Shown piece after piece: positions 5,050-59,528 of a stretch of DNA of 64,000 nt. Below the pieces are notes generated by a model, which was not told the origin of the DNA, searched no databases, and saw nothing but the letters and a program-made list of their open reading frames with translations. Within the stretch, counting starts at the first letter, position 1; each line of letters starts with the position of its first letter. Source of the DNA: Phycisphaerales bacterium (GTDB taxonomy: Bacteria; Planctomycetota; Phycisphaerae; Phycisphaerales; SM1A02); the NCBI GenBank assembly GCA_022447205.1, contig JAKVBQ010000016.1, positions 1 through 64,000 on the forward strand, in the 5' to 3' direction. A program made the position numbers and the translations under genes.

Positions 5050-6738
5050 ATGACTACACAGGACACCACCGCTGCCGACATCGGGACCCGTTTCGCGCCA
5101 AGCCCTTCCGGCGACCTGCACGTCGGGGGCGCGCGTACCGCGCTCTTCTGCTGGGCGTTCGCCCGGGGTCATGCCGGACGATTCGTGCTCAGGATCGAGG
5201 ACACCGACCGGAAGCGCTCCTCGGGAGCCGCCGCCCTCGGGTTCCTCGAGGACCTGATCTGGCTGGGCATCGACTGGGACGAGGGGCCAGAGCTCGATGG
5301 GGGCGTGCGTGGGCCGCACGGGCCGTACTTCCAGTCCCAGCGGCTGGAGCTCTACCAGGCCCACATGCAGCGCCTGCTTGACCAGGATCTGGCCTACCAC
5401 GCCTTCGACACCCCCGAGGAGCTCGATGCCAAGCGTCGTGCCGCTCGGGAGGAGAAGAAGGCCTATCGGTACGATCGAGCCGGTCTCGAGGTCCCTCGCG
5501 AGGAACGCTTCGCACGCGCCGAGGCCGGTGAGCCGCACGTGGTTCGCTTCCGGACCCCGGATCGACCGATCGTGATCACCGATGGCGTGCTTGGCGAGGC
5601 GACCCTGCCGGCGGGGGAGGTCGATGACTTCGTGATCCGGAAGGCGGACGGCTACCCGACCTACCACTTCGCGGTCGTCGTCGACGATGCCCTGATGGAG
5701 TGCACTCATGTCCTCCGCGCCCAGGAGCACTTCAACAACACGGCGAAGCACCTGCTGCTCCAGGAGGCGCTGGAGTTCCCCCATCCGACCTACGGGCACC
5801 TGTCCCTCATCATGAATCCCGATGGCTCGAAGATGTCCAAGCGGGACAAGGACAAGGCGGTTCGTGCCGCGGTGAAGGGGGCCGGTCTTGACGCTCCGCC
5901 GGAGGGCATCATCGACGCCGAGGTGTTCTCGAACTGGCAGGCCGACAAGAAGTCCCAGCTCGACAACGACGATCTCCTGGCGCTCGCCGGGGCACTCGAT
6001 GTCGTCCTGCCGGAGATCAATGTCCGCGACTTCCGCCGTTCCGGCTACCTCCCGGAGGTGCTGTGCAACTTCCTCGCGCTCAACGGCTGGTCTCCCGGCA
6101 ACGACCTCGAGAAGTTCGACAACGCCTTCCTCTGCGAACATTTCGATCTGTCCCGGGTCCAGAAGACCCCGGCGCGTTTCGATCGTGACAAGCTGCTGGC
6201 CTTCAACCTGGATGCGATCCAGTCGATGTCGCCGGAGGAGTTCCGTGACAAGGTCCGCGCGCATGGCGAGGCCTACCATCCCGACTTCGTGGCCCGCCTG
6301 ACCGATGATCAGTTCGACCTTCTGGCCAACGCCAGCCACGAGCGTTCGAAGACCCTTGACGAACTCTATCGCGGGAACCAGTGGCTGATGACCCCTGACG
6401 AGGCGGTCACGTGGCCGGTGACCAAGGCGGTCCGGAAGGCGATGCTCAAGGGAGAGCCGTGCGGACTCGAGCTGCTCGAGGCGATCGCGCCCGTCCTCGA
6501 GGCTGCGGACTCGTTCGATGCCGAAGCGCTCCAGGCACTGGTCAACGAGTGGGCGGAGGCCCACTGCGAGGGCAACCTCGGGAAGATCGCGCAGCCATTG
6601 CGGATCGCCGCGACGGGGGGGACGGTCAGTCCACCGATCTTCGACACGCTCGCGATCCTCGGTCGGGATGCCTTCCGCACCCGCATGCGTCGTTGCATCG
6701 ACTCCATGAAGGCCTCGATGGGAGAGGGCGCCGCCTGA
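5050..6738 (+). CDS. gltX: glutamyl-tRNA synthetase
   Basis: 562 aa class I aminoacyl-tRNA synthetase charging tRNA-Glu. The HIGH-type signature appears as SGDLHVGGART at about residues 20-30, preceded by FAPSP as expected for GluRS rather than GlnRS. The KMSKR loop is SKMSKRDKDK near 260-269. The C-terminal anticodon-binding region ends in PLRIAATGGTVSPPIFDTL, typical of GluRS. It is longer than the common ~470-490 aa form. Transcription probably ends at the hairpin 40 bases downstream. Confidence 0.95.
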   Translation: MTTQDTTAADIGTRFAPSPSGDLHVGGARTALFCWAFARGHAGRFVLRIEDTDRKRSSGAAALGFLEDLIWLGIDWDEGPELDGGVRGPHGPYFQSQRLELYQAHMQRLLDQDLAYHAFDTPEELDAKRRAAREEKKAYRYDRAGLEVPREERFARAEAGEPHVVRFRTPDRPIVITDGVLGEATLPAGEVDDFVIRKADGYPTYHFAVVVDDALMECTHVLRAQEHFNNTAKHLLLQEALEFPHPTYGHLSLIMNPDGSKMSKRDKDKAVRAAVKGAGLDAPPEGIIDAEVFSNWQADKKSQLDNDDLLALAGALDVVLPEINVRDFRRSGYLPEVLCNFLALNGWSPGNDLEKFDNAFLCEHFDLSRVQKTPARFDRDKLLAFNLDAIQSMSPEEFRDKVRAHGEAYHPDFVARLTDDQFDLLANASHERSKTLDELYRGNQWLMTPDEAVTWPVTKAVRKAMLKGEPCGLELLEAIAPVLEAADSFDAEALQALVNEWAEAHCEGNLGKIAQPLRIAATGGTVSPPIFDTLAILGRDAFRTRMRRCIDSMKASMGEGAA

Positions 6739-6777
6739 GCCGCGCGGTGCTGACGAATCCACGAGGTGATCAGCGTG

Positions 6778-6803
6778 AAAATGGCCGCCTGCGGGGCATT
6801 TTT
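6778..6803 (+). terminator. terminator after gltX
   Basis: AAAATG...GCATTTTT hairpin with a GC-rich inner stem, 40 bases after the gltX stop and ending in five T. The matching A run on the other side makes it potentially bidirectional. Confidence 0.6.
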
Positions 6804-6985
6804 GGACCCGTTGTCCGTCCTTGCGTGCCCTGGTTTGGTTCGGCATTCGTCATGCCGACGGCATTGGGGACAAGTCATGAATTGTGCAAGTGCATGCATG
6901 GCGGTCGCTTGCATGTCCGATGTGAGTCGGCTCACCGATCGTTGGTGGAAGATCCGTGCAGAAACTGTCCGCAAGTGGGTTGGTG

Positions 6986-7013
6986 TTGTGCACTGTCGTG
7001 CGAACGGTAGATT
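6986..7013 (+). promoter_or_regulatory. possible sigma-70 promoter for the structured RNA
   Basis: TTGTGC at 6986-6991 and TAGATT at 7008-7013, 16 bases apart, match the -35/-10 consensus moderately (3-4/6 and 4/6). Initiation would fall near 7020. Hairpins are also visible further upstream (6840-6858 with arms TCGGCAT/ATGCCGA; 6921-6934 with arms GTGAG/CTCAC), so the true 5' end could be nearer 6830. Confidence 0.35.
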
Positions 7014-7019
7014 CGCCTT

Positions 7020-7811
7020 GTCTCGTGCCGAACGACGCGGGGCGCCGGCAACGGTGCCGACAGCTCGTTCAACCGAGGTTGCCGCCAAGGTGGGCGGCAT
7101 GCATCACGGATGTTCCGAAGCCCATTGGGACGTTCGCAGCAACCGAGATGCATGACAGGTCCCTTCACGCACGATCCAGGTCGTGTACTGGAAGGGATCG
7201 ACCGGTGGTGCGCATCGACGGATGCGCCGACTCCTTCCACGAACCGTCTCGACGGTGAGCGGATCGAACGCCGGACATGGGCCGACGGGACCATGTGCTT
7301 CGGCCGCCACGTGCGGTCGGGCGACAGTCAGGGCCGACATCCGCAAGGATCAGCTCCTGACGCTCGAGACACGTCGGCGGACGTGTCGACCGCAACACGA
7401 GGACGGGACTCGTTCCCGTTCTGCGGAAAGAGACAGGCACCCACGAGAGTGCGTGCCACCCAGGTGGGCCGAGCCCGGATCATTCGCTCCGGATCACGAC
7501 CCACCAGGCCGATGCGACCCGATGGAGACATCAGGTCACGAGACCGGACACGGGTCCGCCGGCAACGGCGCCCATGAACGGAAGGCCGGCGTGAACCGAC
7601 GGGTTGCGCGGCGAGTACCGAAGATGCGAGTGTCACCACTCGGTCCTAGGAGGAGGCTCGCCAGCCGGATCCTGCGCGTGCGCATGGAACGGCGCATCGG
7701 AGATCGCCTTCGGGCATCGACGAGCGACGGCCGGCAAGACACCTTCGGGTTCGTTCAGGCGGACCACGAGACGAACACCAGCGGTCTTTCGAGATCGCTG
7801 GTGTGTTTTTT
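7020..7811 (+). ncRNA. candidate large structured noncoding RNA (~0.8 kb)
   Basis: There is no coding-like frame in this kilobase, but it is packed with perfect hairpins and ends in a textbook terminator. Examples: CATGCATC/GATGCATG at 7098-7105 with 7147-7154, enclosing CGGA-TGT-TCCG; CCCTTC/GAAGGG (7161-7196) with inner CACGA/TCGTG; GCGCATC-GACG-GATGCGC (7210-7227); ACATGG/CCATGT (7275-7296); GTCAGG/CCTGAC (7327-7361) enclosing ATCC-GCAA-GGAT; GACACGTC-GGCG-GACGTGTC (7368-7387); CCGCA/TGCGG (7390-7426) enclosing ACGGGA/TCCCGT; GATG-GAGA-CATC (7521-7532); GCCG-GCAA-CGGC (7558-7569); CGAGTG/CACTCG (7627-7642). Three loops are GNRA tetraloops. It carries no tmRNA, SRP, rRNA or group II intron landmarks that I recognise, and RNase P RNA is elsewhere in the window. 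Size and position beside a tRNA recall giant ornate RNAs such as GOLLD and ROOL, but I see no specific match. The 5' end is uncertain. Confidence 0.55.
7775..7811 (+). terminator. strong intrinsic terminator with UUCG loop
   Basis: A 13-bp stem (ACACCAGCGGTCT pairing with AGATCGCTGGTGT, one G-U) capped by a TTCG tetraloop, followed by G and six T at 7806-7811. It points in the + direction and has no protein gene upstream within 1 kb, so it most likely terminates the structured RNA. Confidence 0.9.
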
Positions 7812-7891
7812 ACCCGGACCCGTTCGCACCGCCTCGGCCCGGCCGCTCGTCCTGGCCCGTGCGCCCTGCGCCCCGGTCGTCGAGCAATCGG

Positions 7892-7919
7892 TTGCGACGG
7901 TCACCAGATCGAGTATCCT
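7892..7919 (+). promoter_or_regulatory. probable promoter of tRNA-Val
   Basis: TTGCGA at 7892-7897 and TATCCT at 7914-7919 with a 16-base spacer. Initiation would fall about 35 bases before the mature tRNA. Confidence 0.5.
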
Positions 7920-7960
7920 GTGCAACTCGCCTGTTCCGGCGCATGTCGTCCGGAACGAAT

Positions 7961-8034
7961 GGGCCATTGGCGCAGTTGGCTAGCGCGCTTGTATGACACA
8001 CAAGAGGTCACTGGTTCAAATCCAGTATGGCCCA
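7961..8034 (+). tRNA. tRNA-Val (GAC)
   Basis: A complete cloverleaf can be folded: acceptor GGGCCAT/ATGGCCC, D stem GCGC/GCGC, anticodon stem CTTGT/ACAAG with loop ATGACAC giving anticodon GAC, and T arm ACTGG-TTCAAAT-CCAGT, with discriminator A. CCA is not encoded. It sits alone between its own promoter and terminator, 150 bases after the structured RNA terminator. Confidence 0.97.
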
Positions 8035-8040
8035 CTCACT

Positions 8041-8392: not shown

Positions 8393-8416
8393 ATGCTTGC
8401 ATGATCATGCAAGCAT
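8393..8416. repeat. 24-bp perfect palindrome over a start codon
   Basis: The half-site ATGCTTGCATGA is followed directly by its exact reverse complement, centred at 8404/8405. It covers the likely ATG (8401) of the glycosyltransferase, so it could be an operator or a translation-blocking hairpin. Confidence 0.7.
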
Positions 8417-9387
8417 CCAGCGCCGAAGCACCTGGAATCGGCTTCGTGGTGCCGATGCACGGCGAGGACTCACTGGTGCTTGAGACCCTCGAGTCCCTGC
8501 GGCAACAGTCAGTTCGGCCCGCCTCCGTGGTGGTCGTCGTCGACGGTGTGGTGTCTGATGAAGAATCGATCCGATCGCATCCGATCGTGGATCGCTTGGA
8601 GGTGCTCGGGACGACTTCGGGAGGACCGGCCACTCCGCGTAACCGCGGCTTCACGATCATTCAGGACGACTGCGATGCGGTCTGCTTCCTCGATCACGAC
8701 GATCTGCTGCATCCGGAGTTCGTTCGAACCGCGCAGGCCGCGCTGATCAAGGAGCCGGAAGCCGACCTCATTGCCTTCCGATTCCGGGTGTGGCATTCGG
8801 ACACTCCGCTCGTGGGGTTGTCTTCGCCACCGGAGTCACCTTCCCTCGAGCCGGTCGGGCTCGACGACTACCTCGCCTGCACCGGATCGATCCTGCCGAG
8901 TTTCTCCGTGCTGCGAAACAGGATCGCGTCCACCATCCGCGAGTCCGGCACCTTTTTCGACGCGAACTATCCATCGAACCAGGACTTCGATGCCTTCGTG
9001 CGGATTCTTTCCTCGTACAGCGGGGTCTGCTGTTCGTGGGAGTCTGGCTGGTACCGGGTGCACCCGGCAAGCATCTCGGCGAATGCGGCGCACGCCTGGG
9101 CGTGCCGGGCCAAAGCGTGCAATGATCTGACGAACTACTTCAAGGCACGCGGGGATGCGTCGTACATGCGCGGGTTCCGCCGGGCTCGTGCCACCGCGGT
9201 CCGTCGTTCGGCGCGTCACCTCTGGGTCGAGGGTCAACGCGGCGAGGCGATCCGACGACTGGGCGGGGAGGCCCTTCGGCGACTCGACATCCGCGCGCTG
9301 TCGCTCCTTCTTTTGCTCGGATCCGGACTCGATCGAAAGGTGCGGATGATGAGCTCGGGTGATCCTCGCGCCCGACGAGACTTCTAG
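8401..9387 (+). CDS. family 2 glycosyltransferase
   Basis: 328 aa from the chosen start. The N-terminus shows the GT-A nucleotide-sugar fold of GT2 enzymes: FVVPMHGEDSLVLETLESL, then VVVVVDGV, PATPRNRGF and the metal-binding DxD-type motif FLDHDDLLHPEF at about residues 96-107. The C-terminal ~130 residues are Arg-rich and poorly conserved in type. It probably transfers a sugar to a surface glycan or exopolysaccharide; donor and acceptor cannot be told. The frame is open from an ATG at 8353, but 8401 fits the start of the fold better. Neither has a convincing ribosome site. It converges with the beta-helix gene. Confidence 0.8.
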   Translation: MIMQASSAEAPGIGFVVPMHGEDSLVLETLESLRQQSVRPASVVVVVDGVVSDEESIRSHPIVDRLEVLGTTSGGPATPRNRGFTIIQDDCDAVCFLDHDDLLHPEFVRTAQAALIKEPEADLIAFRFRVWHSDTPLVGLSSPPESPSLEPVGLDDYLACTGSILPSFSVLRNRIASTIRESGTFFDANYPSNQDFDAFVRILSSYSGVCCSWESGWYRVHPASISANAAHAWACRAKACNDLTNYFKARGDASYMRGFRRARATAVRRSARHLWVEGQRGEAIRRLGGEALRRLDIRALSLLLLLGSGLDRKVRMMSSGDPRARRDF

Positions 9388-11556: not shown

Positions 11557-12567
11557 TCAGGGCGCGGCATCCTCGTTGATGTGCTCGAGGAGCCATCCGT
11601 AGATGTCGTGTCCGGCCTCGAGGTCGTAGGTCCTGGTCCAGGAATCGTGTCCGACGCCCTCGTAGATCGTCATCCGTGCATCGATCGGCTCGGGGTCGGT
11701 GCAGAGCTGCAGGCTGGCCAGCGGGAAGTAGGTCCCGATCACATTCACCACGTCGTCGGCGTCGCCATGGAACCCCCAGATCGGCAGGGCGCCGAGTTCG
11801 CAGCCGTGGGTGTTCCAGGCCTTGATGCCGGAGCCGCAGATCGGCACGGTGGCAGCGAGGAGGTCATCCTGCAGGTGGGCCTCGAGGTAGTTCCAGGTAC
11901 CGATCGCGCCACAGCTGAGTCCGGTGAGGTAGACACGAGTCCGGTCGACCTTGTAGGTGTCGATCGCCCAGCGGAGGAAGGCATCGATGTTCGCCGGCTG
12001 GTGGCACTCACCCGGAACCGGGTTCTGCGGTGAGAGGACGATGAATCGATCGCCCGCCGAACTGCCCTCGACCGGCCATCGGTCCTCCGTGACGAGTCGA
12101 GGCGGCCCGTTGCCGAGAAGACGCTCGAGCTCGTTCGAGGAGCCGTCGCCGTTGCTGCCGACGCCGTGCAGGAAGACGATCAGCGGCCAGTCATCACGTG
12201 CTTCATATCGATGCGGGAGGTACTCCCAGAATCCCTGCGCGGGGTACTTCGTTCCCACTGGCCACTTCGTGTGTCGTTCCGAGGAGGGGCCGGGGAGGCA
12301 GTCATCGGGAACCGTGCCCCAGCTCCCCAGAACGATCGAGAGATCCTGGCCGTCGATGACTCCGTTGGCATCGATGTCCGCTTCGCACCCCTCGCATGGT
12401 CCCCAGTAGGAGAGCAGCATCGCGAGGTCGGCACCGTCGACGACCCCGTCCAGGTCGAGATCCGGTGCACAGGCATCCCCCGATCCGGCGGAGGCGTGCG
12501 CCGTCTGCTGGAGGAGGCCACCGACCGCGAGCAGGGCCAGGGTCTGGATGATGAGGGTGTGTGACAT
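11557..12567 (-). CDS. secreted alpha/beta-hydrolase (esterase) with dockerin-like repeats
   Basis: 336 aa. Signal peptide at residues 1-26. Two EF-hand-like repeats follow, DLDLDGVVDGADLAMLLSYW and DIDANGVIDGQDLSIVLGSW (about 34-83), an N-terminal placement. The hydrolase domain shows DWPLIVFLHGVGSNG (oxyanion strand), the nucleophile elbow GLSCGA, an acid in IWGFHGDADDVV and the His in VGHDSW. This arrangement matches the feruloyl/PHB-depolymerase-like and carboxylesterase families; the substrate may be plant or algal polysaccharide esters. It lies 124 bases downstream of the acyltransferase on the same strand. Confidence 0.8.
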   Translation of the reverse strand: MSHTLIIQTLALLAVGGLLQQTAHASAGSGDACAPDLDLDGVVDGADLAMLLSYWGPCEGCEADIDANGVIDGQDLSIVLGSWGTVPDDCLPGPSSERHTKWPVGTKYPAQGFWEYLPHRYEARDDWPLIVFLHGVGSNGDGSSNELERLLGNGPPRLVTEDRWPVEGSSAGDRFIVLSPQNPVPGECHQPANIDAFLRWAIDTYKVDRTRVYLTGLSCGAIGTWNYLEAHLQDDLLAATVPICGSGIKAWNTHGCELGALPIWGFHGDADDVVNVIGTYFPLASLQLCTDPEPIDARMTIYEGVGHDSWTRTYDLEAGHDIYGWLLEHINEDAAP

Positions 12568-18871: not shown

Positions 18872-20593
18872 ATGAGTCGTTTCCTCGCTCTGGTCATGAG
18901 CGCTTCGTTGGCCGGGCTGGGTGCTCATGCGTCTGCTGATCCGCCTGTGAACGATGCCTGTGCCGATGCACTCGAGTTGGAGGATGGGATCCATGCATTC
19001 TCGACGGACGATGCCGAAACCGACGGGCCTGACTCGAGTTCCTGCATCACCTTCGGGTCACAGCAGACCTGGAACGACATCTGGTATCGATACACCGCAC
19101 CGATCGACGGGATCCTGCTGATCTCCACCTGTGGAACGGTCGACTTCGACAGCAGGATCGCCGTCTACACGGGGACCTGCGGGGATCTCCAGGAACACGC
19201 CTGCAACGATGATGGTGCGGGATGTCATGGGTACTCCTCGTATCTGCTCGCCCACTGCGTTGCCGGTGTGGAGTACCTCGTTCGAATCGGTGGCTACGCC
19301 GAAGGTGCCACCGGGAGTGGCACGTTCGGCGTGAAGTCGGTCGAGCCTTGTGTCACCACCTGCCTCGAGGGAAGCGATGTCGAGGACGAGCCTTGTGGCG
19401 GGGACACCAATTCGGGGTGTCCGGACGGTTCGCTTCAGCTGCTGCAGTCCGGTGTGCCGATGTGCGGTACATGGCATGTCACGGGCAACTTCCGAGACAC
19501 CGACTACTACACGATCCAGGTTGCGGAGCCCGGAGGCCTGCTCCAGGCCGACCTCTATTCCAATGACAACGTCACCGGCTACATCTACCTGGCAAAGGAT
19601 TCCTGTCCGTCCCATGTGCTGATGTACAGCTACGGTGGGTGCCCGACACCGCTCAGGAGCAGCTGGCTGGAACCCGGTTCCTATCGAATCATCGTCGCCC
19701 CGGGATTCGAGGCCCAGGTCGCGTGCGACGACCCGATGGGGGCGAACGGTTACGTCCTGCAGGTCGACGTCAGCGATGGTGGGATCACCGTCCCCGGCAA
19801 CGACCTCTGCGAGAACGCAGCGGTCGTCAGCAACGGGTCATGGGACTTCAACACCCTGCTCGCGGAAACCGACGGTCCCGACGAATCGCCTGCCGAGTGC
19901 GGTGCGTACAGCGACGGCATCGGATCCGACATCTGGTTCAGCTATACCGCGAGCTGCGAGGGTCTCGTCACCGCGTCCCTCTGCGAGTCAGCGGATTTCG
20001 ACACCAGACTCGAGATCTGGGAAGGCGGCTGCGACGGGGTGCTCCTGGCCTGCAACGATGACGGTGACGACTGTTCCGGCTACACGTCCCGGGTCGAGTT
20101 CCAGGGTCAGTGCGGAGTCGAGTACCTCGTTCGGGTCGCCGGATACGACGGGGCGGCCGGCACCGGCACGCTCCATCTCGACTGCGAGGGGACGTGCGAC
20201 TGCAATGGAAACGGCACGTCCGACCAGGATGAACTGGATCTCGGCAGCTCCACGGACTGCGACCTGAACGGCATTCCCGACGAGTGCGATCTCGCCGGGG
20301 CCGGTGAAGCAGGCGACTGCGACGGTGACGGGGTGTTCGACGCCTGCCAGATCATGCACGGCGAGGCGGATGACATCGATGCCGACGGCATCCTCGACGT
20401 CTGTCAGTGCGAGCTCCATCCCCAGGCATGCTGCCCCGCGGACATCGATGGTGACGGCAAGGTGACCGGTGCCGACCTCTCCCTGGTCCTCGGTGCCTGG
20501 GGCACCTCCGAGGAATCGGCCGACCTTGATTCGGACGGCCTCGTCGGTGGTGCCGACCTCGCGCTCGTGCTCGGAGCCTGGGGGGACTGTTGA
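18872..20593 (+). CDS. secreted repeat protein with dockerin-like C-terminus
   Basis: 573 aa from the chosen ATG at 18872, which gives the signal peptide MSRFLALVMSASLAGLGAHA; the frame is open from 18788. Two homologous beta-sandwich units (about residues 22-150 and 310-430) share DxWYRYTAP/DIWFSYTA, VDFDSRI/ADFDTRL, ACNDDG and VEYLVRIGGY/VEYLVRVAGY, resembling pre-peptidase C-terminal-like domains. They are followed by Cys-Asp repeats (DCDLNGIPDECD, DCDGDGVFDAC) of thrombospondin-3-like calcium-binding type. Two dockerin-like repeats close the protein (DIDGDGKVTGADLSLVLGAW, DLDSDGLVGGADLALVLGAW). Likely cell-surface or extracellular; no enzyme domain seen. Confidence 0.85.
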   Translation: MSRFLALVMSASLAGLGAHASADPPVNDACADALELEDGIHAFSTDDAETDGPDSSSCITFGSQQTWNDIWYRYTAPIDGILLISTCGTVDFDSRIAVYTGTCGDLQEHACNDDGAGCHGYSSYLLAHCVAGVEYLVRIGGYAEGATGSGTFGVKSVEPCVTTCLEGSDVEDEPCGGDTNSGCPDGSLQLLQSGVPMCGTWHVTGNFRDTDYYTIQVAEPGGLLQADLYSNDNVTGYIYLAKDSCPSHVLMYSYGGCPTPLRSSWLEPGSYRIIVAPGFEAQVACDDPMGANGYVLQVDVSDGGITVPGNDLCENAAVVSNGSWDFNTLLAETDGPDESPAECGAYSDGIGSDIWFSYTASCEGLVTASLCESADFDTRLEIWEGGCDGVLLACNDDGDDCSGYTSRVEFQGQCGVEYLVRVAGYDGAAGTGTLHLDCEGTCDCNGNGTSDQDELDLGSSTDCDLNGIPDECDLAGAGEAGDCDGDGVFDACQIMHGEADDIDADGILDVCQCELHPQACCPADIDGDGKVTGADLSLVLGAWGTSEESADLDSDGLVGGADLALVLGAWGDC

Positions 20594-40744: not shown

Positions 40745-42247
40745 TCACGGGTCGGAGGGGGAATGCCAGCTGCCCAGGATCATCGAGAGGTCCGCTCCGT
40801 CGATCAGGTCATCCGGGATCAGGTTCATGTTGTGCAACGAACCGTTGGCCGGCAAGGGGCCCCATGCCCCGAGCAGGACCGCGAGGTCCCGCCCGTCGAC
40901 CTTCCCGTCGCCATCCATGTCTCCGATGACCGTCAGCCCCGGCCCCGTCGCGGTCCCTTCATAGGCATTGAGCATGGGCTTGTCCTCGATGGGGTTCGAC
41001 GGCTCGGCCGGCATCGTGACGTAGGTCGTTGATTCATCCACCTTGTTCGTCACGTGGTATGCGATCATCCCGGCCACGACATGTTCGTCCGGCCATGACC
41101 TGTGCTGGGACCGTGCAAGTGCGGCGACACCTGCCGCGAATCCCGTCGAGAAGCTGGTTCCGTTGCCGGCCGCGTATTCGCCACCAGGAAGGGGTCCGAT
41201 GACCGCTTCCGCGGGGTCGGGTGAGCCGTCGGACCTCATGATCGTCTCTGCCGGTGCGCAGAGTGCCACCTTCCAGTGGTAGTTCGACATGGTGGCGTGG
41301 TGGCCGAGGGAATTGCACCCCCCCACTGCCAGGACGCCGATGTTTCCGCCATGGAGCCCGTTGTAGCTCGCTGGGAAGAGGATCGAGGGTTCGGTGGGTG
41401 ACGGCAGGGTGTTGCCGGCGGCTGCGAGGACCGTCGCACCGTTCATGATGGCGATGTCGATCGCCTCACGCATCGCGTTGCTCTGGGTGGTGGTGCCGAG
41501 TGCGAGGACGATCACGTGCGCGCCCTGATCGACGGCGTGCAGGATGCCATCCGCGACATCGGAGGAGACCCCGGTCCCGTCGGGCTTGAGCACGGTGACC
41601 GGAAGGAGTCGGGCGTCCGGAGCGACGAGGGCCACGAGTCCCGCCACGAACGTGCCGTGTCCGGCATGAACTCCGTTCCCCGAGTCGTCGGTCTCGGTCT
41701 GGTTGACGATCATGTTGGCGCCCAGATCGGACACCCGTCCCTCGAGTGCAGGGTGGTCGGGATCGATCCCGGTGTCGATGATCGCCACCAGGGTTCCCGC
41801 GCCACGTGCATTGTCGGCATGGGTGCGTTGGAGTTCCATCTGTCGCGCTGCATACTGATCCCGGTAGCTGGTGGCATCGATGCCGAGTCCGCTGACCCAG
41901 AGGCTTCCGGTCTGACCATGGGCATCGATGATCCGGTTCGGTTCGTTCCAGATGATCGACCCGTCGTCCTCGGCTCCAGAGAAGATCTCGTTGATGGCAT
42001 CGCTGTCCTCCTGATGGGGCGGAGGCGGATACTTGATGATGTACATGTTCAGCCGGTTCGAGAGGCGGGCCATCGAAGAGGTGCCCTCACCGGTGATCTC
42101 CTCGATTCGGTCCTGGACCAGCTCCGCGGTGGATGCATTGACGGCCTTGAAGAGGTACTGCCCGGGAACGGGAGCGCCGTCCACTTCGGTCTGGGCCAGC
42201 GCTGTCGCCGGCAGGAGGAACACCAGGGTCGCGAGGGTTCGAAGCAT
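40745..42247 (-). CDS. secreted subtilisin-like serine protease (S8) with dockerin-like end
   Basis: 500 aa. Signal peptide MLRTLATLVFLLPATALAQ. An inhibitor-like propeptide may lie at about 25-90. The catalytic triad is complete: Asp in IIDTGID (~158), His in HGTFVAG (~197), Ser in GNGTSFSTGFAAG (~365), with the oxyanion Asn in AAAGN. Two C-terminal EF-hand-like repeats, DMDGDGKVDGRDLAVLLGAW and a degenerate one ending DGADLSMILGSW. It starts 1 base after the CHAT stop with AAGGAG 7 bases before its ATG, so it is the last gene of the sigma-CHAT operon and would act outside the cytoplasm. Confidence 0.93.
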   Translation of the reverse strand: MLRTLATLVFLLPATALAQTEVDGAPVPGQYLFKAVNASTAELVQDRIEEITGEGTSSMARLSNRLNMYIIKYPPPPHQEDSDAINEIFSGAEDDGSIIWNEPNRIIDAHGQTGSLWVSGLGIDATSYRDQYAARQMELQRTHADNARGAGTLVAIIDTGIDPDHPALEGRVSDLGANMIVNQTETDDSGNGVHAGHGTFVAGLVALVAPDARLLPVTVLKPDGTGVSSDVADGILHAVDQGAHVIVLALGTTTQSNAMREAIDIAIMNGATVLAAAGNTLPSPTEPSILFPASYNGLHGGNIGVLAVGGCNSLGHHATMSNYHWKVALCAPAETIMRSDGSPDPAEAVIGPLPGGEYAAGNGTSFSTGFAAGVAALARSQHRSWPDEHVVAGMIAYHVTNKVDESTTYVTMPAEPSNPIEDKPMLNAYEGTATGPGLTVIGDMDGDGKVDGRDLAVLLGAWGPLPANGSLHNMNLIPDDLIDGADLSMILGSWHSPSDP

Positions 42248-59111: not shown

Positions 59112-59119
59112 ATGGTTGC

Positions 59120-59528
59120 GCATGGATGTAAGCCGAGTTCTGTCGCGGCGCGAACGCCGTGGCGATCATTTCTCTCGAGTCGCCGTTGCCGACGACCTCC
59201 GGAGCCGGCCGGGTTGCCCCGAAACGACTCCAAGCTTGCGACCCGCTCCAACCGCGGACCGCGGCCACGCCGGCAAGCCGACGAAGGAGCTGCTTGCAAT
59301 TGCACGCGGTGGGGTTTGCCGTGCCTCGTCCGTCTCCGGAACGAGCGGTGCGCTCTTACCGCACCGTTTCACCCTTGCCGCCCGCCGAAGCGGGGTAGGC
59401 GGTCTGTTCTCTGTGGCACTTTCCCTGACTCGCAACCTGAGCCGGTGGGTGTTGCCCACCACCGTGTCCTGTCGTGCTCGGACTTTCCTCTCTCCGGCCG
59501 GGGCCGGAAAGCGATCGCCTTTCCACAT
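59120..59528 (-). ncRNA. rnpB: RNase P RNA (class A)
   Basis: On the - strand the 5' region contains GAGGAAAGTCCGAGC, the conserved P4 5' strand, and the 3' region contains ACAGAACTCGGCTTAC, the P4 3' strand and end. GATGT near 59529 pairs with ACATC near 59125 to close P1. About 410 nt, normal size. It is the catalytic RNA that processes tRNA 5' ends. The interior has the expected long paired arms (e.g. GCCGGCCGG-type stems) and no coding frame. Confidence 0.95.

Follow-up and report, generated by a model that had tools for sequence, protein, structure and literature searches.

Positions 7019 to ~7811 on the + strand of the window (the whole 64,000-nucleotide stretch analyzed here) are almost certainly an independent gene for a structured noncoding RNA (ncRNA) of ~790 nt, with its own promoter region and a Rho-independent terminator. 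We put the full reading, in which this independent gene encodes an architectural RNA, at about 50%. An earlier note made from the sequence had proposed an undescribed large structured RNA here. The proposal is upheld by a negative Rfam search, by homologues in related genomes, and by covariation, and a search of the available literature found no description of this RNA. Homology, a common architecture, covariation, strand, and terminator were established by comparison of four genomes; transcription, suggested by conservation in the promoter region and by the terminator, and the exact ends we infer. To our knowledge, few bacterial RNAs of such size and complexity exist outside the ribosome and introns. 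Most known ornate RNAs are phage-borne or come from Gram-positive bacteria. A chromosomal RNA family with strong covariation in uncultured planctomycetes enlarges the ornate RNA set and offers a compact object for study by cryo-EM and probing.

Locus, extent, and distribution

The RNA gene sits on a planctomycete chromosome between two ordinary genes, without a phage setting. The features of the locus are as follows.

5050–6738, + strand: gltX (glutamyl-tRNA synthetase), the upstream flank (PF00749, E 5e-86; PF19269), at an orthologous locus in relatives
6956–6969, + strand: conserved upstream DNA element GTGCAGAAnYTGTc, 14 nt, in all four homologous loci
6986–7013, + strand: candidate promoter (TTGTGC, 16 nt, TAGATT)
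7019–7811, + strand: large structured ncRNA gene, ~790 nt, with predicted ends; called on fold z, covariation, and + strand tetraloops
7775–7811, + strand: intrinsic terminator, a 13-bp stem (stem-loop 7775–7804) with a UUCG loop, then TTTTTT
7961–8035, + strand: tRNA-Val(GAC), the downstream flank

The tRNA-Val neighbor named in the earlier note is the tRNA-Val(GAC) listed above. The extent given there, 6830–7811, starts too early: structure in 6740–7010 is no more than ordinary (z −0.33), so the RNA begins near 7019 and runs to ~7811. A glycosyltransferase family 2 gene (8407–9384, +) lies 3′ of the tRNA.

The GC-rich interval contains open frames of up to 266 codons. The earlier statement that it has no coding frame is therefore inexact, but none of the frames is conserved as protein among the homologues by tblastn. 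All stop-to-stop frames gave short matches only, in frames of both strands, the longest with 38% identity over 106 aa where DNA identity is ~70–75%. This pattern is not that of a gene under protein-level selection. None of the four homologues matched a family in Rfam 15, the window locus having no hit at gathering score, and relaxing the search to E ≤ 10 produced sub-threshold chance matches only. Among candidate identities, tmRNA, RNase P, SRP RNA, 6S RNA, and group II introns were rejected, with no Rfam match at the locus, in agreement with the earlier note, which had set aside all of these except 6S RNA. A tmRNA is located elsewhere in the window genome, G001, and G202, and a bacterial RNase P class A RNA lies at 59113–59527 (−; RF00010, 218 bits). 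As in other large ornate bacterial ncRNAs, several hundred nucleotides carry a conserved covarying structure, and the region is noncoding.

Homologues upstream of tRNA-Val(GAC) were identified in three further Phycisphaerales genomes, giving a set of four sequences from two genera of the same family: the window and G001 (JAQWMQ010000026) from genus g1, and G013 (PKCS01000042) and G202 (NHEC01000016, TMED75) from genus g13. The public records of G001, G013, and G202 are metagenome assemblies. DNA similarity, searched in 101 relatives and 181 family genomes, clearly reaches only G001, the one other species of g1 (76% over the last 250 nt); G202 and G013 were added by a covariance model of the RNA 3′ end (R1). 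All four RNAs lie 3′ of gltX and 5′ of tRNA-Val(GAC), and the locus is therefore orthologous. The RNA is present in both species of g1 and in two of the five examined species of g13, two of these five being incomplete assemblies. G050 and G204, also of g13, keep gltX and the tRNA without the RNA. Loss or gain of the RNA within g13 is clear, and its absence from these close relatives means that it is dispensable over evolution.

No RNA was found elsewhere in the family by DNA search or P4 motif (181 genomes) or by synteny. The motif of the P4 hairpin (listed below) had no further match at ≤2 mismatches in these 181 genomes, and when the exact P4 pattern was sought across the GTDB species collection (84,980 species), only these relatives and chance matches came up, the latter accounting for six of the nine. 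A class-wide sample of 397 genomes contained no homologue by a second model, R2; of its seven best matches elsewhere in the class, five were unstructured and two folded well but lie in long open frames. Weak R1 matches (L065–L072) were rejected as being without the P4 motif. Phages and plasmids had no homologue and viral contigs no credible match; a 17-mer from the RNA 3′ end had 36 matches in viral contigs, none of them significant by covariance model. Forty tRNA-Val loci of other species were also scanned by synteny, and no homologue lay upstream of the tRNA gene. By these sequence comparisons, the RNA family has a narrow range and a rapidly changing sequence.

The interval between gltX and tRNA-Val(GAC) (window 6739–7960; orthologous intervals L086–L125) is a site of variable insertions in this bacterial family. 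It is nearly empty in some species, such as G106 and G058. In G050 and G204 an RCC1-like gene lies between gltX and the tRNA and the RNA is absent; other species have a GH81 gene and the RNA, joined in g13 by RCC1. In G001, G013, and G202 a divergent GH81 glucanase gene is upstream of the RNA. Each also occurs alone, the RNA in the window genome and GH81 in G204; the two are therefore not obligate partners, and a GH81-linked function was rejected. Three window stretches of ~53 aa (12313–12471, 20432–20590, and 40760–40921) show similarity to a segment of the G202 RCC1-like protein; secreted proteins of this lineage may carry them as a dockerin-like module.

Occurrence in only some genomes, at an interval that varies, would also be expected of a remnant rich in hairpins, or of a mobile repeat, with no function as RNA. 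We consider this scarcely credible for a single-copy RNA in which compensatory changes preserve one architecture across two genera, and which has a conserved promoter-region element, a terminator, and strand-specific tetraloops. A cis-acting leader or attenuator would instead serve the gene downstream, and the RNA does lie directly upstream, on the same strand, with a terminator at its end. However, the next gene is tRNA-Val in g1 and the RCC1-like gene in g13, the same-family tRNA-Val genes that were checked are without the RNA, and size also counts against this role, as we know of no attenuator near 790 nt; it is very improbable.

The independent-gene reading draws on the sequences at both ends. 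The element GTGCAGAAnYTGTc lies 37 bp upstream of a −10-like box in g1 and 28 bp upstream in g13, and is possibly an activator site. A regulon reading of GTGCAGAA sites was rejected, because in these genomes the other copies are inside coding frames, chiefly that of a MiaB-like gene. For the promoter suggested earlier at 6986–7013, a generic sigma-70 scan found no consensus promoter at the window locus, whereas a TAGnnT box is common to all four homologues and ends 5–10 nt 5′ of the RNA; a −35-like hexamer is not evident in g13. The terminator was correctly described in the earlier note (13 bp, UUCG, six T), and its homologues directly abut the closing helix P1 in all four genomes.

Fold, covariation, and common architecture

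The window RNA (7010–7812) folds at −405.9 kcal/mol compared with −349 ± 8.6 for shuffles (z −6.7, 50 shuffles), and its homologues have z values of −8.9 (G001), −7.2 (G202), and −8.7 (G013). Predicted folds contain 17–19 hairpins, consistent with the dozen or more first noticed. Within the window RNA, 400-nt z values are about −2 to −5, compared with −2.6 to +1.6 in the orthologous gltX/tRNA-Val interval of six relatives without the RNA. GNRA caps had been recognized before but undercounted at three. There are five (GCAA three times, GAGA twice), against 0.4 per shuffle and a maximum of 2. Across the four homologues, + strand GNRA loops number 5, 7, 2, and 1 (− strand 0–1; shuffles 0.2–0.4) and + strand GNCG loops 3, 4, 3, and 3 (− strand 0; shuffles ~0.2–0.4). 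This enrichment only on the + strand, together with the terminator, identifies the + strand as the RNA strand.

Covariation was counted by predicting the structure from one sequence and scoring it on a sequence-only MAFFT alignment. For the window and G001, 84.3% of cells are paired with 38 two-sided changes (2–7 when slid; 18.8 ± 3.0 when shuffled), and for G013 and G202, 80.7% are paired with 40 two-sided changes (slid 7–14; shuffled 21.2 ± 3.1). Sliding the partner by 1–3 columns as a control left 32–43% paired and 2–14 two-sided changes. Between genera, structure-alignment scores are 1474–1549 versus 547–974 for dinucleotide shuffles and 1047–1117 for equally stable reverse complements. 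The covariation that the earlier note had named as a check is thus strong across most helices in these four sequences.

One architecture is common to all four homologues, and their folds match helix by helix. The four-way consensus has 29 helices and 272 pairs in an alignment fitted to structure with an in-house structural aligner, in which pair counts are inflated; the MAFFT covariation, cross-genus scores, and tetraloop counts are independent of it. The main elements are listed below, with per-helix two-sided changes counted in that structure-fitted alignment.

7019–7027 (5′ strand) and 7765–7773 (3′ strand), + strand: P1 closing helix; joins the RNA ends and covaries
7030–7070, + strand: P2 hairpin with GNRA loop; 16 pairs, 12 with two-sided changes
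7074–7081 (5′ strand), partner within 7735–7747, + strand: P3 long-range helix; covaries
7082–7097, + strand: P4, the most conserved hairpin; CCGCC-WWGGUG-GGCGG then CRYGCA, exact in all four
7098–7154, + strand: P5 hairpin; 20 pairs, 12 two-sided changes
7158–7199, + strand: P6 hairpin; 17 pairs, 14 two-sided changes
7208–7228, + strand: GNCG-loop hairpin 1 (GACG, GACG, GACG, GCCG); 9 pairs, 8 two-sided changes
7275–7296, + strand: GNCG-loop hairpin 2 (GACG, GACG, GUCG, GUCG); 8 pairs, 4 two-sided changes
7368–7387, + strand: GNCG-loop hairpin 3 (GGCG, GACG, GACG, GACG); 8 pairs, 7 two-sided changes
7610–7662, + strand: 3′ domain stem 7610–7616/7656–7662 around hairpin 7625–7643; 7 + 7 pairs, 6 + 6 two-sided changes, 100% canonical

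P1 reads GUCUCGU/ACGAGAC in three homologues and GUCUCAUC/GAUGAGAC in G202, a compensatory difference. The P2 loop is GCAA, GAAA, GAAA, and GCAA across the four, and P3 covaries between CGAGGUGC/GCACCCG and CGAUGUGU/ACACAUCG. The 8-bp stem 7098–7105/7147–7154, first taken for a long-range pairing, exists as the base of the local hairpin P5; the long-range stem 7019–7027/7765–7773 had been missed. Overall there are ~20 hairpins, which leave little of the enclosed chain unfolded. Shape is kept while sequence changes quickly. Because the sequence diverges within one taxonomic family and the fold stays, genome scans keyed to sequence conservation can miss such RNAs.

Two alternative pairings were observed. 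The invariant P4 loop GGUG (7087–7092) is complementary to an invariant CACC in the terminator 5′ strand (7776–7781), as UUGGUG/CACCAG in genus g13, and may form a pseudoknot or antiterminator; both partners are invariant in all four sequences, so the pairing has no covariation signal. GUUCGU (7749–7754) can form the consensus pairing with GCGGAC (7759–7764), or it can match perfectly to ACGAAC (7771–7776), which overlaps P1 and the terminator; this may be a switch in genus g1.

Architectural role and alternatives

Few unpaired nucleotides are invariant, and apart from those in P4 and at the 3′ end they lie scattered. This weighs against a large ribozyme of unknown chemistry, which the size, GNRA tetraloops, invariant P4 hairpin, and compact multihelix core would otherwise suit. 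There is also no Rfam match to known ribozymes, group I or II introns, or RNase P, whose gene is elsewhere, and we regard catalysis as improbable. The conserved shape, fast-changing sequence, and few invariant unpaired positions point instead to an architectural role. Our tentative preference, held at slightly less than even odds, is for a scaffold, RNA-only or with protein, rather than a catalyst or base-pairing regulator. P1 pairs the RNA ends, P3 is a second long helix nested inside, and the chain between them folds into ~20 hairpins, many capped by GNRA or recurrent GNCG loops, with the invariant P4 near the 5′ end. In a compact scaffold of this kind, the projecting hairpins would make docking contacts among themselves, with further copies of the RNA, or with a protein, in the way of ROOL, GOLLD, and OLE.

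All four homologues have three GNCG loops in equivalent places, on greatly altered stems, which suggests that they are docking sites for RNA-RNA contacts or for protein. The same loops speak for an RNA that titrates a protein or forms an RNP core, in the manner of CsrB, 6S, or OLE, with GNCG- and/or GNRA-capped hairpins binding a single protein, which the RNA would sequester or assemble. Their stems covary as the loops stay GNCG, and each RNA has 3–4 of them compared with ~0.2 in shuffles. However, they may merely be stable caps, and no partner gene co-occurs: the neighboring GH81 gene is not found in the window genome, and G204 carries it but not the RNA. We consider this alternative rather unlikely, though the most probable of those weighed against the architectural scaffold.

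Comparison with known ornate RNAs

The earlier note had loosely compared the RNA with GOLLD and ROOL. The likeness holds for size, ornateness, and a tRNA neighbor only; it does not extend to an Rfam match, a viral context, or a tRNA island, the tRNA neighbor here being one host gene. GOLLD is ~800 nt with many hairpins and unknown function; its genes lie in phages and prophages, close to tRNA islands, and it forms RNA-only nanocages (PMC12286853). The new RNA likewise has ~800 nt, many hairpins, and a nearby tRNA gene. None of its four homologues matches the Rfam covariance model of GOLLD (conserved 3′ region), and it lies between gltX and tRNA-Val rather than in a phage or prophage, with no viral context found. 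ROOL (Rumen-Originating, Ornate, Large; 659 nt in one example) has a complex fold, a tRNA neighborhood, and no known protein partner (PMC12286853). The new RNA shares its size class, complex fold, and tRNA neighborhood. It differs from ROOL in having no Rfam model match, in not being found in phages or plasmids, and in being closed by a 5′/3′ helix with a terminator immediately after.

OLE (Ornate, Large, Extremophilic) is chromosomal, ornate, and ~600 nt, and forms RNA dimers and an RNP (PMC12286853, PMC9723947). It has been described chiefly in Gram-positive bacteria, and parts of its sequence are highly conserved (PMC9723947). The new RNA is also chromosomal and ornate but, unlike OLE, has no Rfam model match and keeps little sequence. 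GOLLD, ROOL, and OLE all form RNA homo-oligomers (PMC12286853). By analogy, the new RNA could be a giant ornate class native to planctomycetes and not carried by phages, in which GNRA/GNCG hairpins and P4 loops would build a homo-oligomeric RNA-only particle, an independently arisen chromosomal counterpart of the GOLLD/ROOL nanocage; we find this doubtful. As judged from sequence and predicted fold, the new family falls within the loose GOLLD/ROOL/OLE kind, which it resembles in size and ornateness and not in sequence.
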